From positions 1 to 35,656 of the forward strand of contig JABDAI010000004.1 in assembly GCA_013289195.1 (NCBI GenBank): a DNA stretch of 35,656 nt. Direction: 5' to 3'. This DNA is from Verrucomicrobiota bacterium. Its GTDB lineage: Bacteria > Verrucomicrobiota > Verrucomicrobiae > Opitutales > CG1-02-43-26. Positions 11,068 through 34,532 of this stretch are shown here, in pieces. The position numbers and the translations under genes were made by a program. The notes under the pieces were generated by a model, which was not told where the DNA came from, did not search any database, and saw only the letters and a program-made list of their open reading frames with translations. Each line of letters begins with the position of its first letter. Position 1 is the stretch's first letter.

Positions 11068-12141
11068 TTATTTGAACCAATCGCTTACTATTTTTGTTAA
11101 TTTTTCCCAACTAGAGCGGATCCAATTAGTGAAAAATCCAGCTGATTCAGTCGCTACTGGATTTAATGTTAGGTTTGGACATTCAAACCAGGGAATATCG
11201 AGATCGACGGATGATCCTTTCGAACTTGTGATATCGAGAGTTTTAAGTTCAGGCAGTACACCTATTTCTATTTGAGTTTCAATATTAGGAAGATCAATAG
11301 TTCCAATACGAATTGATTCAAGTTTGTATAATTCTCCGAATGACATATAGCATTTTTTCGGAGCTTGGACTTTATCAGCATCAGCTTTAATAGAATCACA
11401 TTTAAAAGATTTAAGGTTTCTAAAATCGTTCATCCAACCCAACCTAAATGGACCCTCTTGTACTAGAAGAGTGTCTATCTCGAGATGTTCCAGATTCGGA
11501 AAACCTGGTGGGTATATTGAAGTAGGATAGGTACCAATTGATAAAGTCTTAAGATTTGTTAGTTGCTTTAAGAACGTTCCGATTTTTTCATTATATGTTG
11601 CACAATGGATCTTTACTATTTGATCGAGTCTCACCTTTGCTTCTACCCTTAATGTTTGACCGGTAAGGGCATTGAGGGTAACAAAATCTTCATCAGTATC
11701 AATGCGAATGTTTAAGAGGATGTTTGTTGGAAAGTTTTTGTATTTAATGATGAGTTTAGAAAGAATTGTGGAAGAGCAACTTAACTCTGTTATCTCAAAC
11801 AAAAGCTCTGGATTTGAATCTATTAGCTTGGTGAAATCTTCAAGATTTTCTTTGGTTATTGGGGCCCCTTTTAACAAAAACATTGGTTTGGCAGGTATTT
11901 GATTTGCTGCTGTCGGTATATCTGTAGCTTGTTTAACCTCTTTGTGCACTTCTGATACAGGTGCTTCAGCTTTAGGAGTTAAAAGCTTTTTCTCCGGGAC
12001 ATCAATCTTAATTGACTTGGCATCTTTCGCACGTGGTGGGATCTGGATCTGTGGAACAGACTGTCCTTCCTCGCTCGAAACTGTCGCAGAAGCTTTACCA
12101 CTTACTCTCTTTCGCTCACTGGGTGGGGGTATATAGAACAT
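11068..12141 (-). CDS. LRR-like repeat protein of unknown function, shortest family member
   Basis: A 357-residue protein. Residues 1-95 are Pro/Lys/Ser-rich and probably disordered (it opens MFYIPPPSERKR). A helical segment follows (about 95-190), then a short solenoid (about 190-330) with units such as LTNLKTLSIGTYP, FPNLEHLEIDTL, LYKLESIRIGTIDLP and LPELKTLDITSS. The same LxxLxIG core occurs in the larger proteins at 21074 and 32139, so I place them in one family. It ends with an aromatic, basic helix (WIRSSWEKLTKIVSDWF). There is no signal peptide or membrane segment. Codon use is more A/T-rich than in the neighbouring ileS. Protein binding is the usual role of such solenoids; a host target is speculation. 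Confidence 0.7.
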   Translation of the reverse strand: MFYIPPPSERKRVSGKASATVSSEEGQSVPQIQIPPRAKDAKSIKIDVPEKKLLTPKAEAPVSEVHKEVKQATDIPTAANQIPAKPMFLLKGAPITKENLEDFTKLIDSNPELLFEITELSCSSTILSKLIIKYKNFPTNILLNIRIDTDEDFVTLNALTGQTLRVEAKVRLDQIVKIHCATYNEKIGTFLKQLTNLKTLSIGTYPTSIYPPGFPNLEHLEIDTLLVQEGPFRLGWMNDFRNLKSFKCDSIKADADKVQAPKKCYMSFGELYKLESIRIGTIDLPNIETQIEIGVLPELKTLDITSSKGSSVDLDIPWFECPNLTLNPVATESAGFFTNWIRSSWEKLTKIVSDWFK

Positions 12142-12281
12142 ACATATATATTAAACTACTTTGAAAAACTTTGCAAATTTTGAACTTTTTTTGTTCATTT
12201 AATATATTAGACTATTTGGCATAAAAATACTTGAATCTCTGAAATTTCATGTCCCCAAAATTCAAGTCTTTTTAATCTTTC

Positions 12282-12300
12282 CAGCCTTTTTAAAAGGCTT
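12282..12300 (-). terminator. Weak hairpin between two minus-strand genes
   Basis: AGCCTT and AAGGCT flank a T/A loop, giving a 6-bp stem just downstream of the stop of the membrane protein at 12322. No clear T-tract follows on the minus strand, so a terminator role is tentative. Confidence 0.25.
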
Positions 12301-12321
12301 CAAATCTTTAATTTTAATATC

Positions 12322-13092
12322 TCAAAATATTTTTTCGCATTTTTTGACCTGGGGTTCCAGCAAATGTCTCATAAGAGTAGAATAATAATAAATATCTTCG
12401 TCTGTATAACCAGACTTTTCCAGTTGAGCGCCTGTAAGATTCATAATAAATCCTCGCATAGCACCGGCCAATATTATTCCAGGTAGTAATGGAATAAGTT
12501 TATTAAATTCATCCTTAGAAACAAATAATATGCATGCAACAATACTTCTAATAATATTAGTTATCACATCCATTAATAGTTTTGAATAAATACGAGGAAA
12601 ACTAATAGTAAATACATAACTTAAAAAAGGTACTATGATAGCTAATTTAACTCCATAACTTAATCCATTCTTGTTAAATCCATTCAATATAAGAGATGAA
12701 ATAATCATCTTTATTGCTAACGACAAATATCTATTGTCAATTAATGGATCAATAATATGGTTCAATAGAAAAATTGACAAGAAATAAGTTTTCGAGAATT
12801 CATTAATTTTTTCTGCAGATTGATCATAGTTCGAATTTAATTCGCCATTAAAATTTGATATCAACTCTCTTAATCTTAAATAACTATTTGACAATGCATC
12901 CGTCACATCATATTTAAATAAACAACTATTAAAGAAATCTGTAAATGAATAAGGGCCCATTCTAGGAACAAATCCATCTTTCATGTGTAATGTGTGTAAT
13001 AATTTTCCCTCAGGAAAAACTTTTGAACAAATAATAGAATTAGTATAATATATACCTCTAGCTCCTAATCCATTGAAAGTAGTATTTTTCAT
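12322..13092 (-). CDS. Four-helix membrane protein of unknown function
   Basis: A 256-residue protein I do not recognise. The first 110 residues are soluble-looking. Four hydrophobic helices follow at about 122-139, 147-164, 172-191 and 199-217, then a short charged tail (EKSGYTDEDIYYYSTLM). The ATG at 13092 is preceded by A-rich sequence with no Shine-Dalgarno. It lies 49 bases downstream of the gene at 13142 on the same strand, so the two may be co-transcribed. Very low GC and no recognisable family suggest accessory or fast-evolving origin. A membrane-protein remnant lies 0.8 kb further upstream, but I could not align the two by eye. Confidence 0.6.
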   Translation of the reverse strand: MKNTTFNGLGARGIYYTNSIICSKVFPEGKLLHTLHMKDGFVPRMGPYSFTDFFNSCLFKYDVTDALSNSYLRLRELISNFNGELNSNYDQSAEKINEFSKTYFLSIFLLNHIIDPLIDNRYLSLAIKMIISSLILNGFNKNGLSYGVKLAIIVPFLSYVFTISFPRIYSKLLMDVITNIIRSIVACILFVSKDEFNKLIPLLPGIILAGAMRGFIMNLTGAQLEKSGYTDEDIYYYSTLMRHLLEPQVKKCEKIF

Positions 13093-13141
13093 TTTGTTTA
13101 TTTTTTAGAGTAATCTTATTTATGCTAAAAGCAATACAATT

Positions 13142-13813
13142 TTAATTTCCCTCGCTCAAGTTTACATGACATATCTCTCCTAGGATTTTTCTTTGTATAG
13201 GATTATTTTTTGAATTTTCAGATTCTGCATCGTTAAAATCTGAGAAATTATAAGCATTTTTTGCAACTTCTACAATAGTTTTACACACATCAAGTTTGTT
13301 ATTTACTATAAAATTAAGAATTACAGTCAGCATTTCATTACTTGTAAATAAGATTATTATATTTTCTTTCAATATCTCAATAGACTTTTCATTTAAACGA
13401 TTGTACTGTCGCTTCATAAATGTTTCTAAAAAATTTAAAACACTCAAAATTTTATCTTTAAATTGCAAGCGGTCAGCTAATTGCAAAAGCTCCTGACGGT
13501 TTTGAATAGTGGGAGATTCATACAAATCGTCGTCTTCTAAGAGGTCACCCTCTTGGTAGAGAGGTGGAACGATTTTTGGTTGTAAAGAAAACCAAATTTT
13601 TGTCGCACAACGCAACATCTCGCATTCTGCTGCTAACAATCTTTCTTTAAGAGACTTTTTTGTACCGTTTTCATCTATGCAGTTATCACAGACGCGACGC
13701 AATGCGTTACATGTTGTTGCAATTGCTACGACTGATATATAATCTTTCACATCATAAAAGTGAGATATTAAATATTTATCAGTATCAAGACTTAATGTTA
13801 TTGTATTATTCAT
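13142..13813 (-). CDS. Unknown protein with F-box-like N-terminus
   Basis: A 223-residue, mostly helical protein without signal peptide or membrane segment. Residues about 14-42 (YLISHFYDVKDYISVVAI, then TTCNALRRVC) follow the spacing of an F-box: a hydrophobic helix, a D at the turn, then a second helix with Cys-x-x-Leu/Arg. F-boxes recruit eukaryotic SCF ubiquitin ligases and are known in effectors of Legionella and chlamydia-like bacteria. The match here is by eye and weak. The rest is helical with several Cys, possibly a repeat or adaptor region. It is followed 49 bases later by the membrane protein gene. Confidence 0.5.
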   Translation of the reverse strand: MNNTITLSLDTDKYLISHFYDVKDYISVVAIATTCNALRRVCDNCIDENGTKKSLKERLLAAECEMLRCATKIWFSLQPKIVPPLYQEGDLLEDDDLYESPTIQNRQELLQLADRLQFKDKILSVLNFLETFMKRQYNRLNEKSIEILKENIIILFTSNEMLTVILNFIVNNKLDVCKTIVEVAKNAYNFSDFNDAESENSKNNPIQRKILGEICHVNLSEGN

Positions 13814-13929
13814 TATTTTTTATTTCATTTAATTCAACATATGATTTAATATTTTAATAATATAATACAAAAAACCTATTGTGTAAACTAAAAAATTTAC
13901 CAATTAAAAATCCTGCAGATTAAGTAAAC

Positions 13930-14409
13930 TTAACAAGAGCCCGTAACTAATAAATTAGAGATTAGAACTAATGATTTTAATATACAACCTATTAGAATTC
14001 CTAATTCAACGCCGCCTGGATTTATTGTGTGTACAGCCCACACTGACATATCTATGAGGAATAGCGGCCCCGCTAATGCCCAATAGCCGGGCTCAGGTAA
14101 TCTCCTTTATTCATACACTCCTGCTAGAAGTGCTGCTGTTGCCAATAATATCGTTTTAATATATGTTGCAAAAGGGGTACCAGCAGCAATATTTCCTTTG
14201 AACAACAACGGCCTAAAAATATACCATAAAATGCTAGCTCAGTCCAAGTACCCATTATTGAAGCTAATGTGTATAATAATATTGCCTCTTTCTGAAGAGC
14301 AAATACTTGGTTTATTTTATTAACTAATAATGTTAAACATCCTACAATTACTGACGTTCCGTATATCGCTAGATCACGTTCAGAATAGTGTTGTACCGTG
14401 GAATGTCAA
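13930..14409 (-). pseudogene. Frameshifted remnant of a multi-helix membrane protein
   Basis: The roughly 650-base gap between 13814 and 14461 holds a broken gene. On the minus strand a coding-like frame reads HYSERDLAIYGTSVIVGCLT, then LLYTLASIMGTWTELAFYGI. After a frameshift near 14220 it continues NIAAGTPFATYIKTILLATA, meets a TAA after LLAGVYE, and resumes with PGYWALAGPLFLIDMSVWAV and LGILIGCILKSLVLI, stopping at 13930. The hydrophobic periodicity fits four or five membrane helices. No start codon fits the 5' end, where an in-frame TGA precedes the first segment. Family unknown. Confidence 0.6.
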
Positions 14410-14461
14410 TACTACATTTATATGCGAGATCGTTGTTTCTCTAAATTAAACCACTTGAAAA

Positions 14462-15424
14462 TCATACAGTTTGCACAAGTACATTTGACTTAAGTCCTCC
14501 TAAGTAATCGGAAAAGACGTCTGTTTCTGCAGTATTTCGTAGAGCCTGTTGGACCATCCCCATTTTAGCGTCTAAGTTATCGACCATAGAGACAAATACA
14601 GCTTCGGGAGTTGCAGCCATTATGGCAGCGCCCCACTCGAGTTCCCCTTGATGGCTCAAAATGATATGTTCCAAGCGCTCAAGTAATTCTGGAGCGAGTT
14701 TCGATTGCATTGCCGCCTTACGGGTTATTCGATAACCCAAAACGACATGGCCTTGCAGAATCCCAGTTTTTGTGCGTTTTATAGTCATGCCATTTTCGTA
14801 TTCGATTGTCTTTCCTACATCATGGAGTATCATGCCGGCTATTGCCAAATCTCTATTCACCTGCGGATATAATGGCAATAAGACATATCCTGCACGAGTC
14901 ACATGTACTGTGTGTTCTAAAAGTCCACTTCTGTAGGCGTGGTGCATAGAAACTGCAGCAGGGCTTATTTTAAAAACTTCTCCAATATCTTCCATCACTT
15001 GCAGGACGGTTGTCCTGAGTTCTTTATGGCCAATTGCATTAATATAGCCTTGGAGCTCATCCCAAAGTTCTTCGATGGTTTCGGGAGAAGATTCTACAAG
15101 ATTTTCCAAGATATTTTCATTTGCGAGCTCTTCTTTCGAAAGCACTGCAGCTTGGATTAATTTAGGACTAAATCTTCCTTGATAATGATCGCTTAATCCC
15201 TGGATTCGGACGAGACTGCCTTCAGGTGTATTCTTAAAGAACATAAAGGAAGGGGTATCGCTAAAACAGGTCATCGCAAATGCGCCTGTTTTATCACCCA
15301 ATTCTACCATTAAAAACTCAGATCCATTTCGTGCAGTACGAGAATTGGACTTTTTATAGACTAAAAGACTTTCAAATTCTTGAGTCGCTCCTTCTGGAAT
15401 ACTTTTTAATTCTTTTACATTCAT
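14462..15424 (-). CDS. yhaM: OB-fold/HD-domain 3'-5' exoribonuclease, YhaM-like
   Basis: About 320 residues. The N-terminal part (1-95) looks like an OB-fold nucleic-acid-binding domain, with FLMVELGDKTGAFAMTCF and a SLVRIQGLSDHYQGRF strand. The C-terminal part is an HD metal-dependent phosphohydrolase: His161-His162 in MHHAYRSGLLEHT, His201-Asp202 in ILHDVGK, and a later ILSHQGELEWG. This order is that of YhaM/CBF1-type 3'-5' exoribonucleases, which trim single-stranded RNA or DNA. I chose ATG 15424 (MNVKELKSI) over a longer frame that would overlap the mgtE stop; the spacing is then 16 bases. It is the last gene of the fliO-to-yhaM run. Confidence 0.82.
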   Translation of the reverse strand: MNVKELKSIPEGATQEFESLLVYKKSNSRTARNGSEFLMVELGDKTGAFAMTCFSDTPSFMFFKNTPEGSLVRIQGLSDHYQGRFSPKLIQAAVLSKEELANENILENLVESSPETIEELWDELQGYINAIGHKELRTTVLQVMEDIGEVFKISPAAVSMHHAYRSGLLEHTVHVTRAGYVLLPLYPQVNRDLAIAGMILHDVGKTIEYENGMTIKRTKTGILQGHVVLGYRITRKAAMQSKLAPELLERLEHIILSHQGELEWGAAIMAATPEAVFVSMVDNLDAKMGMVQQALRNTAETDVFSDYLGGLKSNVLVQTV

Positions 15425-15440
15425 AATTAATTCAATCAGT

Positions 15441-16811
15441 TTAAAACAAAAGCCATGTTCCAAGTCCTAGGAAGATTAAAAAACCGCAAACATCTGTTAA
15501 GCCGGTTAAAAAAATCGAAGAACTTTGAGCAGGATCACATCCAATTCTCTTAAGCATTAAAGGAATAAATGCTCCTGCTACACCTCCTAAACCCATATTC
15601 AATATCATTGCCAGAAAAACGACACTGGCTATTTTGAGTTCATTCGTCCAAACCCATACTGCTAAAGAGGCCACTACCCCAATTAATATGCCATTGATAA
15701 TTCCCTTCGCAGCCTCTTTAATACAGATACGTAAGCTATCAAAGCTTTCGACATTTCCTATTGCTATACTTCGAATAGCAACAGCTAAGGTTTGCGCTCC
15801 GGTATTGCCGGCTAAACTTGCAATCGCAGGCATAAAGACGGCGAGCAAGGTCAAATGTTTTATTTCTTCTTGAAAAAGGGATATGACTGTGGCTCCCATA
15901 ACTGCAGTAAGCAAATTGACTAAAAGCCAGGGACTCCGCTTACGAATGCTAAAGGACAGTTTATCATGAATAGTTTCATCTGCCCCGGCTCCTACGAGTT
16001 TCTGAAAGTCTTCGGTGGCTTCATCCTGGATGATGTCCATAGCGTCATCGTGTTCTACAATTCCCAAAAGTCTTCCTTCATCATCGACAACAGGAAGATC
16101 GTACAAATTAAGCTCACCCATCTTAAGAGCAACTTTTTCCCTATCTTCTGAAGTCTTACATAAGCCCTTCAGGCTTGTATTCATGATATTAATAACCTTA
16201 TCCTTTGCATCAGCGAGAATCAAATCTCGCATTGAAAGTGTTCCTTTTAATTTTCCATCAGAATCAATTGCATAGATATACGATACTTCATGTACTTTGT
16301 TTTTGAGGCGACGAAGCTCTTGAATGGCCTGATCTACTGTCATATTTTCATTTACAGCAACAAAATTAGGCGTCATGACACCTCCTGCGGTGTCTGGAGC
16401 ATATTTCAGAAGTGCCTTAACTATTGTTGCTTGTTCCGGTCCCAATTTTTCTAGCAAACGAACTCGGTCGCGCTCACTAAGCTCACTTAGAAGATCGGCT
16501 GCATCATCAGGATCAAATTCTTTCAATATACGCAGCGCACGCCACTCTCTCATCGCAGCAACTACCTCTGCAGAAGTTTCTACATCCATTTCGGCAAGTA
16601 TCGCTGATGCATCGATATCAGGAACTTTTCTGAGGATAGCTCGGCAATCCTCAACGCTCAATCGATTGAGAAAAGAAGCTATTGTATGGGCGGGAGTAGC
16701 TCTGAGCTTACCAGCGTCGATATTTTCTATGCCTTTTGACAGGAGTTCAAGTAACTCGCCTGCAGAATATACTTCTGATTGATTACTATTAGACTGTACA
16801 GTTTTAGGCAT
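15441..16811 (-). CDS. mgtE: Magnesium transporter MgtE
   Basis: A 456-residue channel-like Mg2+ transporter of the inner membrane. The order is standard: a helical MgtE N domain (about 10-135, with DPDDAADLLSELSERDR), two CBS domains (about 140-265) that sense cytoplasmic Mg2+, and a five-helix membrane domain (about 285-456). The pore signature region is visible in FMPAIASLAGNTGAQTLAV and the Pro/Gly-rich MILNMGLGGVAGAFIPL. It lies 32 bases after the isochorismatase-like gene and 16 before the yhaM-like gene, within one probable operon. Confidence 0.95.
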   Translation of the reverse strand: MPKTVQSNSNQSEVYSAGELLELLSKGIENIDAGKLRATPAHTIASFLNRLSVEDCRAILRKVPDIDASAILAEMDVETSAEVVAAMREWRALRILKEFDPDDAADLLSELSERDRVRLLEKLGPEQATIVKALLKYAPDTAGGVMTPNFVAVNENMTVDQAIQELRRLKNKVHEVSYIYAIDSDGKLKGTLSMRDLILADAKDKVINIMNTSLKGLCKTSEDREKVALKMGELNLYDLPVVDDEGRLLGIVEHDDAMDIIQDEATEDFQKLVGAGADETIHDKLSFSIRKRSPWLLVNLLTAVMGATVISLFQEEIKHLTLLAVFMPAIASLAGNTGAQTLAVAIRSIAIGNVESFDSLRICIKEAAKGIINGILIGVVASLAVWVWTNELKIASVVFLAMILNMGLGGVAGAFIPLMLKRIGCDPAQSSSIFLTGLTDVCGFLIFLGLGTWLLF

Positions 16812-16843
16812 CTGCCATAAGCTTGCACAGATTTCAATAGAAG

Positions 16844-17386
16844 TCAGCTATATTTTTTAACAATATCGATAAATGCCTTACAATCAGGATGTTCAAATGT
16901 TTGCATTAAACTATAAAAAACAGTTTCCGATGGCAATCTGTGGCATTTTGAATTCTGTAGATAGGCTACAATAGCTCGGGAATCCTCTTCTCTTCGTCCT
17001 CCGACGCAATCACTTAGCATAGTCACATCAAAATCAAACCGCAATGCATCTGTAATTGTCTGATAGACACATATACTGGTTTCAAGCCCTGCTATTAAAA
17101 GATGTTCAATGCCTTCATCCCTAAGATAGTCTAAAAATCCTTCTGCACCAAAAGCTGAAAAAGCTTTTTTGGAAAAACACTTTCCCTGGTTTAAACCGGC
17201 ATCTAAAAGACTCTTATTCGTGCCTTTTAATTTTTCAGGGTTTTGTTCTGTATAGATAAGTTTTATTCCTAGTAGATTAGCACTTTCAATAGCAAATTGA
17301 CAGCGCTTCAATAATTCTTGTGACCTACCAATAGCTTTAAGAAAACTATCTTGTACATCCAAAACAACCAATGCTATACCTTCCAT
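16844..17386 (-). CDS. Isochorismatase-family cysteine hydrolase
   Basis: A 180-residue hydrolase of the isochorismatase-like superfamily (nicotinamidases, ureidohydrolases, isochorismatases). The catalytic triad is visible: Asp10 in LDVQDSF, a Lys at 73 or 74 in FSKKAFSAF, and Cys106 in GLETSICVYQT. The length matches the single-domain group of uncertain substrate often called YcaC- or hydrolase-like. It follows trhO by only 3 bases, so it is co-transcribed. The GAGGAAG inside the end of trhO is the only Shine-Dalgarno-like string I found before a start in this window; since it encodes trhO residues, it may be coincidence. Confidence 0.85.
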   Translation of the reverse strand: MEGIALVVLDVQDSFLKAIGRSQELLKRCQFAIESANLLGIKLIYTEQNPEKLKGTNKSLLDAGLNQGKCFSKKAFSAFGAEGFLDYLRDEGIEHLLIAGLETSICVYQTITDALRFDFDVTMLSDCVGGRREEDSRAIVAYLQNSKCHRLPSETVFYSLMQTFEHPDCKAFIDIVKKYS

Positions 17387-17389
17387 AAT

Positions 17390-18364: not shown

Positions 18365-18384
18365 GGCACGAAATCTTGTTTAAC

Positions 18385-18843: not shown

Positions 18844-18877
18844 TGATGTAAATTTTTTAATCCCGAAACTGAGCTTT

Positions 18878-18905
18878 ATAATACCATTTCCTATATTCAA
18901 ACCAA
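18878..18905 (-). promoter_or_regulatory. Weak promoter candidate for the fliO-trhO-mgtE run
   Basis: On the minus strand TTGGTT (plus 18900-18905) and TATTAT (plus 18878-18883) are 16 bases apart. The -10 has one mismatch and the -35 is poor. It lies 35 bases before the fliO-like ATG at 18843 and opposes the divergent gene at 19015. Confidence 0.3.
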
Positions 18906-19014
18906 GTATAATTTTGGTTATGCAACATTTTTCTGTAAAATTTATAAGGCTCGATTGAAGCAATAATGCTAATTAATTGAAAAAAACGAAAACTAATGTT
19001 AATTTTTAATTATA

Positions 19015-19680
19015 ATGAATAAAATAAGCAATTATACTGTCATTTTTATACTTTTTCTTTCACTAAGTGTGATAGAGGCCGCCATCCTAATGCCTTCATT
19101 AAAGGAAAATAACAAAGTTATCCTTAAACTCGAAAAGGACGAAGTTGCTATTTTTAGTTACGGATCTCTCATGCAGATAGAAGAACTACATGATCAATCC
19201 TACAATGGACCTTTTATCCAAGCGGACCTCGCAAATTTTAAGCGTACTTGGTCCGCAAGATATCCCACCAACTGGAGGCATCAACATCTTAAGTTCAAGG
19301 ATAAGGAGAATGAGTATTTTTTTCCTAAAAGTATTACTTATCTCAATATTGAACCTTGCAAAGATTGTAAGGTCAATGGGATGATATTCGTTTGCTCAAA
19401 AAAAGATCTCGAATATTATGATAAAAGAGAAGCCCCTTATAATCGGGTCAAAATAAACGATAAACTTCTTAATATATCAATTATCGGTGGAGATACTTAT
19501 GTATATACGGCTAAACCAAAACAGTATTTTCCAACCAATAAAAACACCTCTCCCCGAGATACAGTGATACTGCAATCCTATGTAGATATTATAGAAGAAG
19601 CCTTGAATATTCTCGGAAAAGAATTTACAAAGGAATACAATAATTCTACACAACCTCTACCTACGCATTTGGTTTTTTAA
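19015..19680 (+). CDS. Exported gamma-glutamylcyclotransferase-like protein
   Basis: A 221-residue protein. Residues 7-23 are hydrophobic (YTVIFILFLSLSVIEAA), a signal peptide or anchor. The rest resembles the GGCT/AIG2-like fold: IFSYGSLM at 47-53 is the substrate-binding YGSLM motif, and Glu139 in YDKREAPYNRV sits where the family's catalytic glutamate is expected. GGCT-like enzymes release 5-oxoproline from gamma-glutamyl amides or amino acids. They are normally cytosolic, so an export signal is unusual and could point to an effector or a periplasmic role in peptide breakdown. A Cys pair (EPCKDCK) fits an oxidising compartment. It is transcribed divergently from the fliO-like gene, with no Shine-Dalgarno. 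Confidence 0.72.
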   Translation: MNKISNYTVIFILFLSLSVIEAAILMPSLKENNKVILKLEKDEVAIFSYGSLMQIEELHDQSYNGPFIQADLANFKRTWSARYPTNWRHQHLKFKDKENEYFFPKSITYLNIEPCKDCKVNGMIFVCSKKDLEYYDKREAPYNRVKINDKLLNISIIGGDTYVYTAKPKQYFPTNKNTSPRDTVILQSYVDIIEEALNILGKEFTKEYNNSTQPLPTHLVF

Positions 19681-19719
19681 TTCACTCCTTCTACTCTTAC
19701 TATCGTTCACGTAGGTGCA

Positions 19720-19735
19720 TAAACTTTAAAGTTTA
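19720..19735. repeat. Perfect 16-base palindrome
   Basis: TAAACTTTAAAGTTTA lies between two convergent units, the GGCT-like gene and the LRR-like pseudogene. It could form a weak bidirectional stem, or be chance in A/T-rich DNA. Confidence 0.25.
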
Positions 19736-19746
19736 CAAATAGACGG

Positions 19747-20183
19747 TTATTGACTCGATCCCAAGCTATCAATCTTCGCTTTGAGTTCAGGATCTTGAAT
19801 TTCTTGATATGAAATCTTTATTCCTTCAGGTAATTTTTCGGGCAGTTTAATCTTAGCACCTAACAGAATAACTCCAAATGAAAGTTGAGTTAAGTTCTTC
19901 ATTTCCGAGGGCAATGCTATCGTAGCCAGATTAGAAACAAATTTTGTACGTCAACATCCGCCACATAGGAGAAAATAGATCCAATAAATTTACGAACTCC
20001 TCCACGATCATCCTTTAATTGATCGATATCTTGCTCGACAAGAGCCAAATCTATTCTTTCAGATGTTCTTCTGCCCGGTGCAATTCTCGGAGTGGCCTCT
20101 CGGACAAATTGTTTAGTTTTTCCAGAAGTTTCGCCAGTTTCTGAGGCAGTTGGTTGTGGTCGATTTGGTGTTATGCTTTTCAT
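19747..20183 (-). pseudogene. Internally deleted, frameshifted LRR-like family pseudogene
   Basis: The N-terminal 88 codons (from ATG 20183) carry DIDQLKDDRGGVRKFIGSIF and SYVADVDV, which align with TIDQLKDNRGFFRNFMGSIC and SYIPYIDG of the intact protein at 21074. About 230 bases further on, in a different frame, the minus strand reads LPSEMKNLTQLSFGVILLGA, then IKISYQEIQDPELKAKI, ending in TAA at 19747-19749. This matches the last two repeats and the tail of the same protein (LPSELNNLTRLSCLSI, IKISYRITAIDDPKLKKI). The gene has therefore lost roughly its central 400 codons and shifted frame. The flanks (19681-19746 and 20184-20338) show only A/T-rich DNA. Confidence 0.8.
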
Positions 20184-20338
20184 AAACCTTATGATATTCC
20201 AATTATATTAAAAATTCAATAACATTAATATAGAATTTATTCAGTATAATTAAAATTTAAATTTTTTAATAAAAATTCTCGACATAAAAAAAATCTTAAT
20301 ATATTTTTATTATAAAAACAATAAAATAATAAATAAAA

Positions 20339-20944
20339 ATGATAACTAATAAAAGAGAATATAGAATAATATTTGAAGAATCGGATTTACCTATTTTGAA
20401 TAATGTGATAAAAGCGAAACCAATAAGTAAAAAAATTTACAATTATGAAGTAATGTTAAATACGGGACTTTCAAAACGCCTAAGTTCGATCAAATTTAAA
20501 GAATTTTTATTTTATAAACAAGACGGCGAAATTGATAAAAAAACCATCATGAAAGTTGCTAAAAGCATTTTTGCAAATGTTTGTTTAAGGTATTATCACG
20601 TAGCCCATTCCAATGACTCAAATAGTCTTATTTCTCCTGAAAAAAATTCCTATATACTTGATATAGAAATGGATGCTTTGCTATTGGCTTGTCAAGAACT
20701 CTTCTTACATGAACAAAGTTCACTTTTGAAGAAAATTCAGACAATTAGTGTCCCTTCAGGAGAACTAAAAACGTTTATCTTCAAACGTAAAAAATCTGAA
20801 AACTTGCTAAGTAGCTACTTCGCTTCAGCCGTTTCAAATAAAAACAAACTTTACCAAGCAATACCATTATTGGAAAACTATCTCAATTCAAGAGAAACGT
20901 GCAATAATATCATAAAACAACAAATGTTACGAGAAATACCATAG
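20339..20944 (+). CDS. Unknown 201-residue protein
   Basis: I do not recognise this protein. It is Lys/Ser/Asn-rich, largely helical by pattern, without signal peptide or membrane helix. Visible segments are a beta-like start (REYRIIFEESDLPIL), a central acidic helix (YILDIEMDALLLACQELFLH) and a C-terminal helix (LYQAIPLLENYLNSRE). The codon pattern looks real: no internal stops over 200 codons in very A/T-rich DNA. It lies between the LRR pseudogene (opposite strand) and the intact LRR-like gene 130 bases downstream on the same strand. A chaperone or partner role is possible, with no direct support. Confidence 0.5.
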   Translation: MITNKREYRIIFEESDLPILNNVIKAKPISKKIYNYEVMLNTGLSKRLSSIKFKEFLFYKQDGEIDKKTIMKVAKSIFANVCLRYYHVAHSNDSNSLISPEKNSYILDIEMDALLLACQELFLHEQSSLLKKIQTISVPSGELKTFIFKRKKSENLLSSYFASAVSNKNKLYQAIPLLENYLNSRETCNNIIKQQMLREIP

Positions 20945-21073
20945 ATAATAATCTCTGATAAAAGTTAATGGTTACAGTTTTGTAATATATTCAATTGATA
21001 AACACTTCGGTGCAACATTTTTATTGATCATTAATTTTAATAAACATATTTTATCCAATTTAAATTAACATAT

Positions 21074-22687
21074 ATGCAAAAAATAAAACCAACGAACACC
21101 AAAAAAACTTTTGTCCAAGACAAAGCTTCTGAACTCGAAATTTTGAAAGAAAAAATACTTTCTAAAAAAATAGAGGAAAAGACTACACCTTCTCAAAGAA
21201 GAACAGATCGAGCTATTGAAGCACAAAACATTGACCCCCTTCAGACTATTGATCAATTAAAGGATAATCGTGGATTTTTCCGTAATTTTATGGGATCTAT
21301 TTGCTCCTATATACCCTATATTGATGGACTGGAGCTCAGTTATAATATTAAGGACGTTATAAAACTATTCGAACAATACAAAAAATATGGTATAACCATC
21401 CCTAGGGATATTTTAAATAATTTTGAAAAAGGTATATATGTTACAGAAACTCAAGCTGCAGAGTTAAAACAATTAACTGCTATTGCAGAACAAGCATCAA
21501 AAAGAAAAGACTTTGGACCATTTAATAATCGTGAAATTGTCGTCCATATTATAGAACAGGGTTTGTTACAGCCTACGCCTAAAGAACGGTTACATTTCCT
21601 ATCGTCAAATATGACTTTGAGAAGTTTATTGGATAAGCCAGCAGAAGATCGGTTACGAGTAGTTCTAACAGGTACTGATATTGGGGATCCTAAAAATCCG
21701 AAGTTTGAATATGCAAAAAATAACAATTTTAAATTAAAAATTGAACTTAAGTGCATATCTGAGATCCAGAATATGATAGATTTTATGAAGGATCCTGACA
21801 ATGCGAATTTACTTACCAATCTAGAAGTTTTCAACTTCGATTTTCCTCTTGAAACACAGATGCATGCCGCAAATTGGAATATTGAGCAACACTGGGATCT
21901 AGAACGATGCGCACAAGAATTATTGAATCTATTGGAATCTAAATGTCCAAATCTAATATCATTTTCTTGTCAAGATATTGATATCAATATGGAATTACCA
22001 ATGACTAACTTAATATCCCTTTCTTGTGGGCCTATTGGACGGTATTGTTCTTTAACATTCCCTTATAAAATGAATAACTTAATATTTTTGTCTTTTGGAG
22101 ATCTTGGTGCACAGGCTACCATAGAACTACCTTCAGAACTGAAGAACTTAAAATATTTATACTTTGGGTCACTTTATACAGGTGCGACATTAAAACTGCC
22201 CTCAAAAATGGAGAGTTTAGAACATTTGTCTTTTGTAACACTTGCGAGAGGCTGTAATTTAACACTCCCCTCAAAAATGGATAACTTACAACATTTGTCT
22301 TTTGAGAATATTCATTCGAATATTTCCGTAATTTTTCCCTTAGAACTGAATAACTTAAAATATCTGTCTTTTAAGTTGCTTTGTGAAGATGTTACCGTAC
22401 AAATGCCCTCAAAAATGGAAAATTTAGAAGATTTGTCTTTAGGAAATATTTGTAAAGGTATTACTTTCAAACTGCCTTCCGAACTCAATAACTTAACCCG
22501 ACTTTCTTGTTTATCTATTATGAAAGGTGCTATTTTCACAATGCCCGAAGTACTTCCTAATCTAATTAAAATTTCATACAGAATCACAGCAATAGACGAT
22601 CCGAAACTCAAAAAAATATTCGAAAATTTGAAAGCAAATCTTCCATCGAATAAATCGAAGACCTTGTCATTAGCCGCTACCGTCTAA
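21074..22687 (+). CDS. LRR-like repeat protein, family member with about ten repeats
   Basis: A 537-residue protein. A basic, helical N-terminus (1-80) ends in DQLKDNRGFFRNFMGS. A helical region follows (80-285). A solenoid of about 23-residue units spans about 290-510, for example LPSELKNLKYLYFGSLYTGA and LPSKMESLEHLSFVTLARGC. The unit can be written LPxxLxNLxxLSxGxLxxGATL. This resembles leucine-rich repeats but lacks the conserved Asn of LxxLxLxxNxL. The tail is short and polar. There is no signal peptide. The neighbour at 19747 is a deleted copy, and further members are at 11068 and 32139. Such solenoids bind proteins; the partner is unknown. Confidence 0.78.
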   Translation: MQKIKPTNTKKTFVQDKASELEILKEKILSKKIEEKTTPSQRRTDRAIEAQNIDPLQTIDQLKDNRGFFRNFMGSICSYIPYIDGLELSYNIKDVIKLFEQYKKYGITIPRDILNNFEKGIYVTETQAAELKQLTAIAEQASKRKDFGPFNNREIVVHIIEQGLLQPTPKERLHFLSSNMTLRSLLDKPAEDRLRVVLTGTDIGDPKNPKFEYAKNNNFKLKIELKCISEIQNMIDFMKDPDNANLLTNLEVFNFDFPLETQMHAANWNIEQHWDLERCAQELLNLLESKCPNLISFSCQDIDINMELPMTNLISLSCGPIGRYCSLTFPYKMNNLIFLSFGDLGAQATIELPSELKNLKYLYFGSLYTGATLKLPSKMESLEHLSFVTLARGCNLTLPSKMDNLQHLSFENIHSNISVIFPLELNNLKYLSFKLLCEDVTVQMPSKMENLEDLSLGNICKGITFKLPSELNNLTRLSCLSIMKGAIFTMPEVLPNLIKISYRITAIDDPKLKKIFENLKANLPSNKSKTLSLAATV

Positions 22688-26490: not shown

Positions 26491-26507
26491 TCCAGTTAAA
26501 AATCTTA

Positions 26508-26876: not shown

Positions 26877-26882
26877 ACCTTT

Positions 26883-27875: not shown

Positions 27876-27885
27876 AATTTTTATA

Positions 27886-28617
27886 ATGTCTCTCACTACC
27901 ACTAAATCCCTTCTAGACGGAATTCTCCTTATCGATAAACCAGCAGGTTGTACTTCGCATGATGTTGTAGACCGAGTTCGTAGAAAATTAAAGATGAAAC
28001 GTATCGGGCATGCCGGCACTTTAGATCCCTTAGCCACAGGACTTCTAATAATTCTTGTGGGGAAATCCACTAAAGCCTCGCAGTATTTGATTAGTCTGGA
28101 TAAAGAATATGAAGCTACCATGCTTCTAGGACAAACCACTGATAGCCAAGATGCCGATGGCCAAATCATAACCACTCAAGAAGTCCCTAATTTTTCACGA
28201 GAGCAAATCGAATCTGCCTTAAATACTTTTTTAGGAGATCAATTTCAACTCCCTCCCATGTTCTCCGCCAAAAAAATAAACGGAGTTCCCCTTTACAAAC
28301 TTGCTCGAAAAGGTGAGGAAGTAGAACGTCAACCACGATTTATTCATATTTCTGAAATCGAACTTACTGACTTCTCTCTCCCAAAAATTTCATTCTCAAC
28401 TACCTGCAGTAAAGGAACTTATGTCAGAACCATTGCTCATGATATCGGACAAAAACTCTCCTGCGGAGCTCATCTGATACAACTTCGCCGCACTGCCACC
28501 GATAAATTCAAAGTAGAAAACGCTCTTTCACTAGAAACTTTAGAAGAAATGCCTATTGCTGATATTCGTAAATATCTTATTCCTACTCATAAAGCCATAC
28601 CTTCTTTAATAAAATAA
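27886..28617 (+). CDS. truB: tRNA pseudouridine(55) synthase TruB
   Basis: A 243-residue enzyme that isomerises U55 in the T-loop of tRNAs. The catalytic Asp47 is in [14 protein letters not shown], and the N-terminal [18 protein letters not shown] box is clear. [13 protein letters not shown] and [10 protein letters not shown] are also typical. It is at the short end for TruB, with only a rudimentary C-terminal region and no full PUA domain. It starts 10 bases after nrnA and is the last gene of the operon. ribF, its frequent follower in related genomes, is not here. Confidence 0.96.
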
Positions 28618-28650
28618 ATAGATAAAATAAAGATAGATAGATAAAAAATC
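28612..28650 (+). repeat. Short GATA-type simple repeat after truB
   Basis: Several imperfect copies of GATA/GATAAA follow the truB stop. It is low-complexity DNA separating the housekeeping operon from the Fic gene, with no clear hairpin terminator. Confidence 0.4.
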
Positions 28651-28708
28651 CACTATACATATATATTTATAGGTTGACTTTTTTCTTTATTCACTTATCG
28701 TTTTTTCT

Positions 28709-30421
28709 ATGAATATAAGTCAATTATCAGCAGCAATACCTTCTGAAAAAAGAGGTGTAACTTACTTATCTATAGATGAGAATAGCAATGATGTTATTTT
28801 TGTTAGTAAGGACGGTCTTGATTCCCAAAAAAGTAGCATTGCTTTCAAAAGTATCTTACAAAGAATTATTGATCAGGAAACCAATCCTAGGATTAAAAAA
28901 TTAGTTAAATACAAAGAGGAAAAACTTATTGAATCGAACAAGTATTTTAGCCTAATAGATCTTGATAACGTAATGCGTTCGGTTACAACATATAAAGATA
29001 CAAGCTATAGACAAAAAATTGCAAATACAGCTCGCCATGATCCATGGTATAGTCGGCTGATGTTTTTTGGAATTAATCCAGCCGATGATAAATGGTCCTT
29101 AAAATGCTGCGAAATTTTAAAAGATTTTGAAGAAAAAGAAGATGTCGATTTTCTGGATGCGCATGGTTATGGTAGTGGAATAGCGAGTCCAAGAAAGGCC
29201 TTTAGATATATAGCCTCTGTTTGCTTAATTGAAGATGAAAAGAAAATATTAAACACTATCAGTTTAGAAATAAAAAGTGATCCGATTGACTTTTTAAAAG
29301 AATTAAAAAGATTAAAAAAATCTGATTCCTATAATCAGTTCGTTCTAGATAAATTAATAGCTCAAGCTGAAGTCTGGGAAGTGATGCAAAGCATTCCAAA
29401 ATTAAAGAATTTTCCTTTTGAAGATATTTGGCGTTTTTGCATAGATATAGAATTTCAAAAATATGGAGCTTATTTCTTCGAAAATGAGATGGGATTTATA
29501 ACAGCTACTTTGAAGGCATTGTGCTACAGCCTTAAGCTTAACAAAATAAGCTACCTTGACTTCATTGAAATAAACAGAAAATGTGGAGAGAAGGTCTTAA
29601 ATGAAAACGACTTTCATCCTTTATCTACGAGACTTCGAGGTAAAGATTTAATTTCTCTTTTTCAGAGCTATGACATATATGGTTTTTCTACAATGGATAG
29701 TGAAGGCATCCAAGACTTAAAAGAGCGAAGTGAAATGAAGGATACACCTTTCAATTTGGTGCGCGATCGAGTTCATGTGACTATGCGTTGTGAACGGTCT
29801 CATTTACGAGAAATAAAATTTCTTTTTTATCAGTATGACAAAAAAATTTCGCAAGCAAAGAATCCAGGAGAACGCTTAATTGCTCATATATGGCTAGCAA
29901 GGGAGCTTTCGCTTCAACATCATATGATAGATGGAAATGGAAGAACTGCTCAATTGGTCTTTCTTTCACGTTTAGCGAACGATCCAAAGTTACCCATGAT
30001 GTTGCTTGATACTAATCCAAATTTGGATACAAATGGGCCAGTAGCTTATGTGCAGAGAGTATTGCAAGGAATGACACATTTCAATAAGATGTGCGGAGTT
30101 AAGCACATTCCTTTGAGTTTTGAAGAAATCGATGAAATGACCAATATTTCAGAAAAACGTCATTGGAAATATTATCATCCAAGTGAGGAAGAAAAGGAGA
30201 GATTCATTAATGAGCATCCTCTCGATCATTTTACTGAAGACCTTGAAGCGATTTTCCGGGCTGCCGCTAAGACTGAGATACTTATTTTGCCCGATTTCAA
30301 AAAAGGCTCAAAAAATCAAATGCTTATCAAATTATCGGAATGCATTAAATATCTCCGGTCAGAGTTAAAAATATTTATTTTTATTATGCTGTTTATTATT
30401 GGATGGAAACTCTTGGGATAA
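28709..30421 (+). CDS. Fic-domain protein with C-terminal membrane anchor
   Basis: A 570-residue protein. The Fic motif is at 404-412: HHMIDGNGR, fitting HxFxDGNGR with Met in place of Phe. The following Arg of the longer motif is Gln (GRTAQ). Fic enzymes transfer AMP or other phosphate-containing groups to Ser/Thr/Tyr of target proteins, and many are secreted effectors or toxins. A string TMDSEG (328-333), 71 residues upstream, fits the auto-inhibitory pattern [ST]xxxE[GN]; it may be chance. The first 300 residues are helical and unknown. The last 20 residues (LKIFIFIMLFIIGWKLLG) form a single hydrophobic helix, so the protein could be tail-anchored. There is no signal peptide and no antitoxin gene next to it. 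Confidence 0.82.
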   Translation: MNISQLSAAIPSEKRGVTYLSIDENSNDVIFVSKDGLDSQKSSIAFKSILQRIIDQETNPRIKKLVKYKEEKLIESNKYFSLIDLDNVMRSVTTYKDTSYRQKIANTARHDPWYSRLMFFGINPADDKWSLKCCEILKDFEEKEDVDFLDAHGYGSGIASPRKAFRYIASVCLIEDEKKILNTISLEIKSDPIDFLKELKRLKKSDSYNQFVLDKLIAQAEVWEVMQSIPKLKNFPFEDIWRFCIDIEFQKYGAYFFENEMGFITATLKALCYSLKLNKISYLDFIEINRKCGEKVLNENDFHPLSTRLRGKDLISLFQSYDIYGFSTMDSEGIQDLKERSEMKDTPFNLVRDRVHVTMRCERSHLREIKFLFYQYDKKISQAKNPGERLIAHIWLARELSLQHHMIDGNGRTAQLVFLSRLANDPKLPMMLLDTNPNLDTNGPVAYVQRVLQGMTHFNKMCGVKHIPLSFEEIDEMTNISEKRHWKYYHPSEEEKERFINEHPLDHFTEDLEAIFRAAAKTEILILPDFKKGSKNQMLIKLSECIKYLRSELKIFIFIMLFIIGWKLLG

Positions 30422-30687
30422 ATATAATATAAACGACTAAGTCATTTATTTTAAAAGACTTACGATTTAAACAACTGAGGATCTTGTTTTAATTAAAGAT
30501 TATAAATTCGATCTAAAAAAGTTATAATTAAATAAAATTATATAAAATTTATTTCAAATAATTATATATAAAAATAAATTTTATAATTTATTAATTTTAT
30601 TCTTTACAAAACAAAATAACTATAGTAAAAAATAGTTATAGACTGAGAATAGATATAAATTTTAACTAATTTTAACCCCAAAAAACT

Positions 30688-31098
30688 ATGTTAAAAACAC
30701 ATCCCAAGATATCGCTATTCATAATCATTGCATTTTCGGTACTTTTTGTAATTACCTATTGTTTTGCGCAAAATCTTGAAACCGCAATCACTAAAGAAAA
30801 GGCAAATACTAAAAATCCGATCCCCAGTTGTGCCGACTCCATAGAAAAAGGGAAAGCTGTCTATTCTCAATATTGCAAAGGCTGTCATGGTCCTGATGCT
30901 GTTCGTGATAAAAAAACTCCTTGCACAGAAACCTTTTGCCCTGCAAATTTGAGAGATCCAAAGCTTTGGAGAATGGGCGAAGGAGCAGTCTTTTGGACAA
31001 TAAGGGACGGACGAAAGCCCATGCCCTGCTTTGGCGAGCGCCTAAGCGAAGAACAATGCTGGCATATTGTCAATTATCTCCACTCCCTTGGTAGCTGA
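30688..31098 (+). CDS. Exported mono-haem cytochrome c
   Basis: A 136-residue periplasmic electron carrier. A signal peptide is clear (residues 8-27, ending FAQ). The haem-binding motif is Cys63-Lys-Gly-Cys66-His67, and Met102 in GRKPMPCF is the likely sixth ligand. The tail SEEQCWHIVNYLHSLG is the typical final helix of class I cytochromes c (cbb3 subunit III-like). Four further cysteines after the haem motif (CTETFC, PMPC, EEQC) are unusual and might form disulfides. No oxidase or cytochrome maturation genes are near, so its partner is unknown. The 266 bases upstream are very A/T-rich with no clear promoter. Confidence 0.88.
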   Translation: MLKTHPKISLFIIIAFSVLFVITYCFAQNLETAITKEKANTKNPIPSCADSIEKGKAVYSQYCKGCHGPDAVRDKKTPCTETFCPANLRDPKLWRMGEGAVFWTIRDGRKPMPCFGERLSEEQCWHIVNYLHSLGS

Positions 31099-31116
31099 TC
31101 TAATAAGTCTGATTCA

Positions 31117-32034
31117 TATAGTAAATTAACATGAATTAGGGATTTCAAAGAAAGAACAGATAGCATCAAATAATCTGTCCATATTAGTTAATCTACTTTT
31201 CACCCAACGTTTCATGTTTGCCCAAAATTTCTCTATCGGATTCAGATCTGGTGAATAGGCAGGCAAAAAAACCAACTTACACCTTACTGACTCAATCAAT
31301 TCTTTCGTTCTTAATGATTTATGAAATGATGCGTTGCCTAAGATTACTGTCTGCCCGGGCTTGAGTTCTTTAATTAAAAATTTCTCAACCCATTTCATTG
31401 AATAATTCTGCATTGCATGCACCGTGAAACACAAAAGGCGCGATGGCCTTTTTACCTCTTAAGCCCGCTATAATATTCGTTCTTAAGTAATACTTTCCAC
31501 TCTTTGACTTTACTAACTCGCCCTTCTTTCCCCAAGCTCGCTCTTTTACGCTGTTTCTATCCATTCCGCTTTCATCTATGTAAACTCGGTTTTCACATTT
31601 AATCTGCTCCAGATTGTTTAAATATGTGGATCGCTTGTCTTCGTCTGCTTCTATGTAAGTGAACGCTTTTTATAACTAAAACCTAGCTTTTTCAGTCGTC
31701 TCCATATGGCTGCTCCAGTCACCTTAAAGTTTTCTGCAATTTCTCTGAGCGTTTTATTAGGATGTTTTTTTACATACTCCTCTAAAACTTTTTGGTCGAT
31801 CTTTCCTATGCTACCAATCTTCGGCTTTGCTTGTAAGGATCCTTCTTCTTTGTAGCGTTTCCACCACCGGTTCACTGCACTCTTGCTTACTTTAAATAAC
31901 TGTGCGGCCATTCGTTGCGTGTTCCCTTCCTCTATATATCGAATCACTCTTATTCTCAAATCTGTGCTAAAAGCTCTTGTACTCATTCATATCAATTGAT
32001 CATAAAAAATCCCTATATCAGAAAAATAACTATA
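31117..32034 (-). mobile_element. IS630-family insertion sequence, copy 1
   Basis: An element of about 918 bases with imperfect terminal inverted repeats of about 29 bases. The left end begins TATAGT and contains TAGGGATTT (31137-31145). The right end carries the complements, AAATCCCTA (32007-32015) and ACTATA (32029-32034). IS630/Tc1-type elements insert at TA, and the ends here begin with TA. It is transcribed on the minus strand. It sits 18 bases after the cytochrome c stop and matches copy 2 except for one base that I can see (31133 G versus 34769 A). Confidence 0.85.
31126..31986 (-). pseudogene. IS630-type transposase in three frames, copy 1
   Basis: The first frame (31986 to 31651) encodes a helix-turn-helix domain (RMAAQLFKVSKSAVNRWWKR). 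At AAAAAG (plus 31666-31671) a -1 shift joins it to the DDE part (FTYIEADEDKR, then VYIDESG with the first catalytic Asp); such slips are used by some IS elements to make full transposase. A second, +1 change near 31393-31395 (an extra A in GAAATGG) is needed to continue into WVEKFLIKEL and NPIEKFWANMKRW, which holds the catalytic Glu. The second catalytic Asp, expected in LDNASFH, is Gly (ILGNASFH). The protein is therefore doubly damaged and probably inactive. Confidence 0.8.
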
Positions 32035-32138
32035 TAAAACTAAGGTAAATCTGTAATTTTTTATTGCAACTTTATGCAACAAAAACTACATTTTAAAGGT
32101 ACTACAAAAATCAATTTTGAAGTAAAAACTTATTCAAA

Positions 32139-34532
32139 TTATTGAAGGCAACAATCTTCTGATGAATTAGCGGGGTTAGCCGCCTTAGCTGGATGATCTG
32201 CGCTGACTACGACATTAATTAATTCGTTAATTGACTGCAAAATTCTTTGATTATTCGCATTCAATGCCTTAACCTTAGCTTGTTCTTGTGGACCCTCCAT
32301 TAGAGAAAGGTACCATTTATCTTGATATTGACTAGGATCATAAGAAACAGTTTGTACAGAAAATTGTTTGACTGTTTTCATATTAGTGTGACACCCACCC
32401 AAAGTAAGATCTATGATATTACTGAGTGAACGTGGCCATTTTATCGTAGAATCTTCACATATATTCCCTAAAGATAACTTAGTAAGATTATCAAGTACAT
32501 CAGGTAGTATCACAACGCCATTACATTGACTAGTTGTAAGATCCCCAATAGTAAGGCTTTTGAGCTTATTAAGAATCCTCGGCAATTTGAATTCCATTTT
32601 ACAAGCCCATGGACTAAATGAACCACTCCTGTCAATAATTCCATCAAAATAAATATCTCCAATAGCCAATGTTTCAAGGCTATCAAGTGAATCTGGTAAT
32701 TTAAAATGACGGCAAGAAATATTCCCAATAATAAGTGTTCGAAGATTATCGAGCGCATCAGGTAATTTGATATTGATACGATAAGTGACATTTCCAATAG
32801 TCAGTGTTTCAAGGCTATTTAGTGAATTTGGTAAAGTAAGTGGTACGTCGTCCACATGGGCATGGGCACTAGAAATATTTCCAATAATAAGGCTTTTGAG
32901 TTTGTCAAGGACTTTTGGTAATTCAATGCCCCTATAATTCAAATCGACATTTCCAATAGTCAGTGTTTCGAGGCTATCAAGTGAATTTGGTAAAAATAAG
33001 TCTCTGTATTTACAAAAAATATTTCCAATAATAAGGCTTTTGAGCTTGTCAAGAACCTCCGGAAATTTAATGTACTTACACTTGAGATTTCCCATCGTAA
33101 GTGTTTCAAGGCTATCAAATTTGTCTGGTAGAACTAACTGCACCTTATCAATTTCCCCAATAAAAAGGTTCTTAGGTCCATGAAGTGTGTCTAAAAAATT
33201 AATGACTGCCTTCTTTTTCGTCTCCGTAAATATGCTTGTCCAACTAGAATCTGGTAAATTAAGTTGTTTTTTAATACACAGGATAGAAAAGTTTGTAAGT
33301 GCTGGTAAAATAAGATTACAACCACCATTAATAGTCAAAATAGTAAAATCTTTTAAATTTTTAAGCGAATTTGATAAATTAAGCGTTGCACCATTTTTAA
33401 CTTCTTTGATAGAGAGATTTGTAACATTATCAGCTTTAGGAAGATTGAGTATAGTATTATCCTCAACACATTCAACAGAAAGATTCATCAGATTATCAAG
33501 CGAGGCTGGTAAATTGACAGTCGCAGTGCTACTCCAGGTACTTCCAATCGAAAAATCTCTAAGATTAACAAGTGCAACTGGCAACGTAAATGTGCCGTTA
33601 TTTTCAATTTTCCCAATAGAAAGCTTTGCAAGATTTTTTGCGGAATTTGGTAATGTAAGAGTGGCGCCATTTTCAACGCATCCAATCGTGAAATTTTTGA
33701 GATCATTAAATGAATCTGGCAAATTGAAGGTATAACGAGCTTTAACAGACCAAATAGTGAGATTTGTAAGAATATTAAGGGAATCTGATGGATTAAGAGC
33801 AATATCCTCAATATTTCCAATACTCAAACTTGTAAGGCTTGAGAAAAATTTCAGATTTTGTGCAATAGTATTAAATAATAGATTAATGGGAACACTAAGA
33901 GTATTTTTAATCTCAAGTAATTTGAAATCTAGTTCTTTAATTTTATTAATAAACTTAGTGCCGGGTTGATTTGCAAATAGATGCTGTATTTGATTCAATT
34001 CAGTACGGCTAACAATTCGGAGAACAAGCTTTAGTTTATCTTCGGAGAGCGAATTGAGTGTTGATGACGGATTGAGTAAATCAGTAATAGTAATAAAAAC
34101 TTTTATTTCAGTTTTATTATTAGTAGTAAAAGAATATTTTTCTTGTATTGATGGAGGAATGGCTGGATGCAATTGAGAATATTGAAAAGAAATAGCTGCT
34201 TTATCGGTTAAAGCATTACATCCAGTATCTATATTTTTTATGGAAGCAAGCCAACAGGCTTTTGAAACTAATCGAAGTCTAAGGATCAACTCTAGGTCAC
34301 TATTAAATAATATATTCGAAAGGAGATCTATTTGTCGAATATATAATTGACTGAAAATGGGATGAACTGTTTCACGAGTAAATAAATCCTGTGAGAGAAA
34401 GGGCTCCTGTGAAACTGCTTTTAATGCACGCGGAGAATGTGAACCTTTATTCGTAATATCTTGCGTGTTATCTGGTAATGGGACAGACTTGATGGGTGGT
34501 ATGATCGTCTGAGGATAATCTGTTGGTTGCAT
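32139..34532 (-). CDS. Large F-box-like/LRR-like repeat protein between two IS630 copies
   Basis: A 797-residue protein, the largest of the LRR-like family here. Residues about 70-97 (LLSNILFNSDLELILRLR, then LVSKACWLAS) resemble an F-box. From about 235 to 710 there are some 20 units of roughly 20-25 residues, such as LPDSLDSLETLAIGDIYFDG and LPDALDNLRTLIIGNISCRH. Alternate units SLETLTIGNV and KLKSLIIGNI are very similar to each other, a sign of recent internal duplication. The C-terminus (710-797) is helical and ends in CCLQ. There is no signal peptide. F-box plus LRR is a eukaryotic substrate-adaptor layout, so a host ubiquitin role is tempting but unproven. The gene is bracketed by the two IS copies. 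Confidence 0.75.
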   Translation of the reverse strand: MQPTDYPQTIIPPIKSVPLPDNTQDITNKGSHSPRALKAVSQEPFLSQDLFTRETVHPIFSQLYIRQIDLLSNILFNSDLELILRLRLVSKACWLASIKNIDTGCNALTDKAAISFQYSQLHPAIPPSIQEKYSFTTNNKTEIKVFITITDLLNPSSTLNSLSEDKLKLVLRIVSRTELNQIQHLFANQPGTKFINKIKELDFKLLEIKNTLSVPINLLFNTIAQNLKFFSSLTSLSIGNIEDIALNPSDSLNILTNLTIWSVKARYTFNLPDSFNDLKNFTIGCVENGATLTLPNSAKNLAKLSIGKIENNGTFTLPVALVNLRDFSIGSTWSSTATVNLPASLDNLMNLSVECVEDNTILNLPKADNVTNLSIKEVKNGATLNLSNSLKNLKDFTILTINGGCNLILPALTNFSILCIKKQLNLPDSSWTSIFTETKKKAVINFLDTLHGPKNLFIGEIDKVQLVLPDKFDSLETLTMGNLKCKYIKFPEVLDKLKSLIIGNIFCKYRDLFLPNSLDSLETLTIGNVDLNYRGIELPKVLDKLKSLIIGNISSAHAHVDDVPLTLPNSLNSLETLTIGNVTYRINIKLPDALDNLRTLIIGNISCRHFKLPDSLDSLETLAIGDIYFDGIIDRSGSFSPWACKMEFKLPRILNKLKSLTIGDLTTSQCNGVVILPDVLDNLTKLSLGNICEDSTIKWPRSLSNIIDLTLGGCHTNMKTVKQFSVQTVSYDPSQYQDKWYLSLMEGPQEQAKVKALNANNQRILQSINELINVVVSADHPAKAANPANSSEDCCLQ

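Follow-up and report, generated by a model that had tools for sequence, protein, structure and literature searches.

Leucine-rich repeat proteins with a likely F-box as candidate effectors encoded in a genome of the Verrucomicrobiota

A 35,656-nucleotide stretch of DNA from a Verrucomicrobiota bacterium (contig JABDAI010000004.1 of assembly GCA_013289195.1; the whole stretch is called the window below) encodes long proteins built from a repeated, leucine-rich unit. This raises the question of what kind of repeat the unit is and what proteins made of it might do. A sequence-only reading of the DNA had proposed a dispersed family of leucine-rich repeat (LRR)-like genes with four members, one of them decayed. 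Here, we find that the unit is a genuine 23-residue LRR in two of the intact genes, P0002 and P0003, and we consider it rather probable that P0003 and its relatives belong to the F-box–LRR type of protein and are secreted as effectors, which would deliver proteins of a protist host to its Skp1–cullin–F-box (SCF) ubiquitin ligase. The genes concerned are as follows, all three open reading frames being present with the coordinates first assigned to them.

11068–12141, minus strand: P0001, 357 amino acids (aa), an orphan with irregular LxxLxIG-like segments whose membership of the family is not demonstrable.
19753–20033, minus strand: a decayed, shortened copy of a P0002-like gene, inverted, of which two fragments in different frames survive and the middle is gone.
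21074–22687, plus strand: P0002, 537 aa, with a helical N-terminus of low model confidence, an LRR cap and nine strands at exact 23-residue spacing (residues 315–503).
32139–34532, minus strand: P0003, 797 aa, with an F-box-like segment at about residues 56–99, an alpha/beta LRR cap at about 114–230 and LRR units at 233–722.

The unit was detected with a two-unit hidden Markov model (HMM) built from 89 two-unit windows taken solely from database proteins, P0001–P0003 and P0022 being excluded. It scored 223.8 bits over 17 stretches in P0003, 103.5 bits over eight stretches in P0002 and 26.0 bits (E 5e-7) in the minus-strand frame 19750–19950 of the decayed copy. Among the 497 stop-to-stop frames that served as controls, together with their reversed and shuffled versions, the best remaining real frame reached 9.9 bits, the best reversed frame 8.8 and the best shuffled frame 6.6. 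Additionally, a period of 23 ranked top among periods of 15–31 for P0002 (z 6.2), for P0003 (z 2.1) and for 16 of the 22 database matches P0004–P0025. In the models of both proteins, the repeats form a solenoid, each turn of which has a long strand and a short one; in P0003, about 20 hand-listed units (233–722) are predicted to lie between an N-terminus of low model confidence and a helical C-terminus. P0002 and P0003 thus have the features that define the LRR superfamily, namely tandem units of 20–30 residues, an LxxLxL-type core and, as modelled, stacked parallel strands in a curved solenoid. The sequence-only reading had named as support a solenoid distinct from known LRR classes, and as refutation either a high-scoring match to an existing LRR or beta-solenoid profile or models lacking a solenoid. 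The former came about in part, as P0002 matches the Leptospira LRR protein LIC10831 (E 3.7e-15) and Pfam LRR_5 (PF13306; 28.9 bits against a cut-off of 27.7, with P0003 below it at 17.7), and the models do show a solenoid. Therefore, based on the sequence and fold searches, the repeat fold is an ordinary LRR and not a new one, and the repeat sequences taken together with the models establish it for these proteins.

The family within the window is smaller than had been proposed. P0002, P0003 and the decayed copy stand as members on their HMM scores, and the gene at 11068 does not: P0001 scored 3.9 bits, its top period was 25, and its best match to the family members (6.4 bits) was not convincing. 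A search for homologues of P0001, in which 2307 candidates were scored, yielded none at E up to 1e-3, and the Pfam matches of P0001 fell below threshold (LRR_4 at 19.7 bits against 27, LRR_14 likewise). By eye, some five LxxLxIG-like segments are spread unevenly along it, so that it may be a distant LRR protein, at best an irregular LRR-like orphan, though membership is undemonstrated. The dispersal and decay of copies that the sequence-only reading described, as well as their internal duplication, were borne out. The two fragments of the decayed copy, in different frames, correspond to residues 57–84 (19950–20033) and 464–522 (19753–19923) of P0002, and an inverted DNA repeat (19946–20028 and 21247–21329) is 78% complementary over 83 nt. 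Internal DNA repeats comprise copies of 49–77 nt in P0003, the top pair being 94% alike, and 91-nt copies in P0002 that are 64–71% alike.

The family becomes interpretable through a segment that precedes the repeats. A regular expression resembling ILFxCxLxSILxLRLVSKGFxxLAS, written after inspection of the sequences, found such a segment in 13 of 25 scanned proteins, with P0003 as the sole carrier among the three in the window; in P0006 it lies in mid-protein. In a Pfam run on 19 relatives (P0004–P0021 and P0023), the F-box model PF00646 matched seven at the equivalent place, with E from 2.1e-7 to 0.031. P0013 was the strongest at 31.0 bits against a cut-off of 20.5, followed by P0023 at 20.2 bits and five more at E 0.0012–0.031. 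When the 13 segments were searched alone, PF00646 matched nine at E up to 10 and two other F-box models matched five and one, while three unrelated families matched one each. A profile made from ten relatives, from which P0003, P0004 and P0005 were excluded, detected P0003 as well as P0017 and P0023; its best control was a reversed frame at 9.9 bits.

34236–34367, minus strand: the F-box-like segment of P0003 (residues 56–99), found by the relatives' profile at E 3.5e-7, 25.9 bits.

These sequence comparisons indicate that an F-box is likely at the level of the family and probable in P0003 itself. The segment had gone unnoticed in the sequence-only reading. Elsewhere in the window, a 223-aa protein (13142–13813, minus strand) resembles Pfam F-box_4 very weakly at its N-terminus (E 0.04).

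Based on this architecture, we propose that the proteins would enter host cells by injection through a type III secretion system, that the N-terminal F-box would dock on host Skp1, that the concave face of the LRR solenoid would bind a host protein, and that the host SCF ligase would ubiquitinate the protein so bound. P0002 would be a relative in which a different, helical N-terminus precedes the LRR, and P0014 and P0020 would join the LRR to a lipase-like domain (Pfam Lipase_3 matches P0014 and falls just short in P0020, at 21.8 against a cut-off of 22). Secretion, Skp1 binding, ubiquitination and a protist host are each a step beyond "F-box–LRR protein" that we infer; with secretion on that footing, the effector-like character suggested by the sequence-only reading appears right. 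A short motif, roughly N-x-x-S-x-(S/P)-R-A, recurs in the otherwise variable N-termini of proteins among P0003–P0023 and would be the candidate signal. Three patterns for it were compared with 2000 shuffles over the first 75 residues of 22 proteins (P0001–P0021 and P0023). The loosest matched 15 of the 22 (shuffles: mean 3.1, maximum 9), and the two stricter ones matched 11 each (means 0.36 and 0.54, maxima 3 and 4). Both strict patterns include P0012, P0020 and P0023; hence, proteins in which no F-box was detected can carry the motif too. Neither strict pattern includes P0002. We treat this candidate export or targeting signal as a lead only, because the patterns were written after viewing the sequences and some of the proteins are close kin.

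A pattern scan with NusA found one relative, in a Puniceicoccales metagenome-assembled genome (58% identity). IF-2 is 47–61% identical to Puniceicoccales relatives among the matches listed, 176 of 177 genomes having some match, and IleRS gave 28 matches above 1000 bits (53–59% identity) among 194 genomes sampled from the phylum, 25 of them from Puniceicoccales. Judged by these three proteins, the window is therefore placed in or near the order Puniceicoccales of the Verrucomicrobiota, at a distance from the genomes compared. Of 177 genomes belonging to the order, 34 have an injectisome-type SctV above the curated cut-off (792–932 bits), in a search restricted to matches at E 1e-150 or stronger; the other full-length matches to the model scored 533–625 bits, as expected of flagellar FlhA, and three partial ones 502–526 bits. 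Among assemblies no larger than 1.3 Mb, SctV was present in 31 of 47 (counted by hand; small assemblies may be fragments), compared with 3 of 130 larger ones, namely two large assemblies (G130, G173) and one of 1.9 Mb (G010). F-box proteins above cut-off were found in three of the 177 (G006, G010 and G016; 1.3–1.9 Mb) and in none of 14 controls; in G006 and G010, SctV accompanies the F-box proteins. By eye, the order's F-box proteins include F-boxes joined to other kinds of LRR or to ankyrin repeats; in G010, two neighbouring frames (L015, L018) appear to have ankyrin-type repeats after an F-box. The presence of injectisomes in small genomes points to a host-associated life, and verrucomicrobial endosymbionts of protists have been described (PMC8204192).

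Several results weigh against the proposal. P0013 alone of the 19 relatives exceeds the Pfam F-box cut-off; in P0003, Pfam detects no F-box at E up to 10, the LP start of P0013 is absent, and AlphaFold2 confidence in the F-box part is mostly below 50. A profile of all 13 segments matched no chain in the PDB at E up to 10. Against the order's F-box proteins, the unit profile of the window family gave at best 8.2 bits (E 0.01) and its F-box profile gave nothing at E up to 0.1. G016 has F-box proteins and no SctV match, and within the window no injectisome gene was found, the sole gene of that kind being a homologue of flagellar FliO.

These points leave room for other readings. The foremost, which we regard as unlikely, is that the proteins bind their partners outside the cell, as adhesins or otherwise, like the LRR proteins of Leptospira, and that the likeness to an F-box is a short helical coincidence. 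The closest sequence matches in the PDB do include Leptospira LRR proteins, one of them reported to bind cadherins (PMC11674859), and most F-box scores lie under the Pfam cut-off; yet seven of 19 relatives match the F-box at the equivalent place, one well above cut-off, and the N-termini of P0002 and P0003 look hydrophilic by eye, with no apparent signal peptide. Somewhat less plausible still is that the F-box is lost or degenerate in P0003 and that the proteins work within the host by their LRRs only, as decoys or scaffolds that hold host proteins and do not have them ubiquitinated. Such a role would agree with the missing Pfam match in P0003 and with P0005, P0010, P0015 and P0016, which carry the segment although Pfam recognizes no F-box in them at E up to 0.5, as well as with P0012 and P0020, where the motif scan found no segment and Pfam no F-box at E up to 10. 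However, the RLVSK-type core recurs in 13 of the 25 scanned proteins and the profile adds P0017 and P0023, which suggests a maintained function. That IS630 elements have carried along repeat genes that are decaying and without function, in a genome undergoing reduction, is very improbable, for although one copy is a pseudogene and nearly identical elements flank P0003, the frames of P0002 and P0003 are long and unbroken, their units are well preserved, and P0004 is 58% identical across the whole compared region (P0003 residues 150–797).

31117–32020, minus strand: an IS630-type insertion sequence copy adjoining P0003, the same as 34753–35656 at 903 of 904 bases, with Pfam HTH_Tnp_IS630 in 31651–31986.
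34753–35656, minus strand: another IS630-type copy, which lies beyond P0003 and is oriented alike, with its helix-turn-helix and DDE parts in separate frames; it reaches the end of the window.

Since copies 903/904 identical lie on both flanks, the P0003 gene sits between very recent insertions. A further neighbour is a candidate for a second effector.

28709–30421, plus strand: P0026, 570 aa, a possible Fic-like enzyme with a GNGR motif and a weak AnkX match.

The GNGR motif resembles the Fic active-site motif; the NCBIfam AnkX match (E 2.7e-4) lies elsewhere in the protein, Pfam gave no match, and by eye the C-terminal tail is hydrophobic. G+C content is 28–34% in the mostly orphan genes at 12322–13813, 19015–22687, 28709–30421 and 32139–34532 (P0001, 37.5%) and 38–45% in the adjoining translation genes. 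This contrast is weak because the conserved AstA, LspA and FliO are as low as the orphan genes.

How the repeats relate to known LRR classes can be stated more closely. The classical classes (typical, SDS22-like and plant-specific), for which the criterion was Asn (or Thr, Ser or Cys) at core position 9, were rejected, as this position is I, L or V in 25 of 28 hand-listed units of the window; T and D occur once each and one unit is off register. In 89 units of relatives it is I, L or V at frequencies of 0.60, 0.13 and 0.11. The sequence-only reading was correct that the ladder Asn is missing and mistaken that Gly replaces it, since the conserved Gly sits at core position 7. The BspA-type or TpLRR repeats of LRR_5 also have 23 residues, and the AF and C positions that belong to their class consensus are missing here. 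Leptospira LIC10831, LIC11098 and LSS01692, together with SHOC2, share a 23-residue, LP-containing LRR and are among the best sequence and structure matches to the family. The window units differ in lacking an Asn ladder and, as we read the alignments, which pair LP with LP, the leucine core of those proteins falls three residues out of step with the modelled strands.

The bacterial (YopM-type) class, with 20–21 residues and two LP in the variable segment (PMC5976695), was rejected against 23 residues and a single LP; so was IRREKO, with 21 residues and a nested LxxLxLxxNxLxxLDL (PMC2946307), given 23 residues without N9 or LDL, although IRREKO and window units are alike in having strands on both faces. 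By sequence, the LxxLx[IF]G core is nearest to the FNIP/FGxxFN repeats of Dictyostelium and giant viruses (PF05725; Crov588 and Crov539, PMC9525666), which share the Gly at core position 7, and FNIP proteins ranked top for both models in a viral structure search. Membership was rejected: PF05725 had no match in P0001–P0003 at E up to 1, the FNIP unit is 22 residues long, the FN motif is lacking here, and the short second strand falls in another variable segment. As the sequence-only reading had surmised, no named class among those compared fits the consensus exactly, and this consensus is thereby added to those known.

In a literature search covering the titles and abstract openings of top-ranked results, no such family was described in Verrucomicrobiota. 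It is conceivable, if doubtful as a whole, that this is an undescribed effector family of protist-associated Verrucomicrobiota whose F-box–LRR arrangement was acquired separately from that of Chlamydiae, with an LRR subclass of its own (23 residues, LxxLxIGxIxxxATLxLPxSLxN, strands on both faces, no Asn ladder) and an N-terminal signal, found also on the lipase–LRR protein P0020, that could reveal the entire effector set of these uncultured symbionts. If the effector proposal holds, a second phylum of the Planctomycetes–Verrucomicrobia–Chlamydiae (PVC) group, through an order with small genomes and injectisomes, would also exploit host ubiquitin ligases, using repeats that resemble those of giant viruses and social amoebae in an F-box–LRR arrangement that slime moulds and giant viruses use. 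The F-box and the N-terminal motif would then provide a testable handle on how uncultured verrucomicrobial symbionts manage their hosts. Among bacteria, F-box proteins have been described in Legionella, in plant pathogens, in Amoebophilus and in Chlamydiae (PMC4209131), and for Chlamydiae Domman et al. (2014) proposed that injected F-box–LRR proteins engage Skp1 so that the SCF ligase tags the target (PMC4209131). The Neochlamydia NEX1a F-box–LRR family reported there, from a different phylum, is alike in architecture to the family of P0003.
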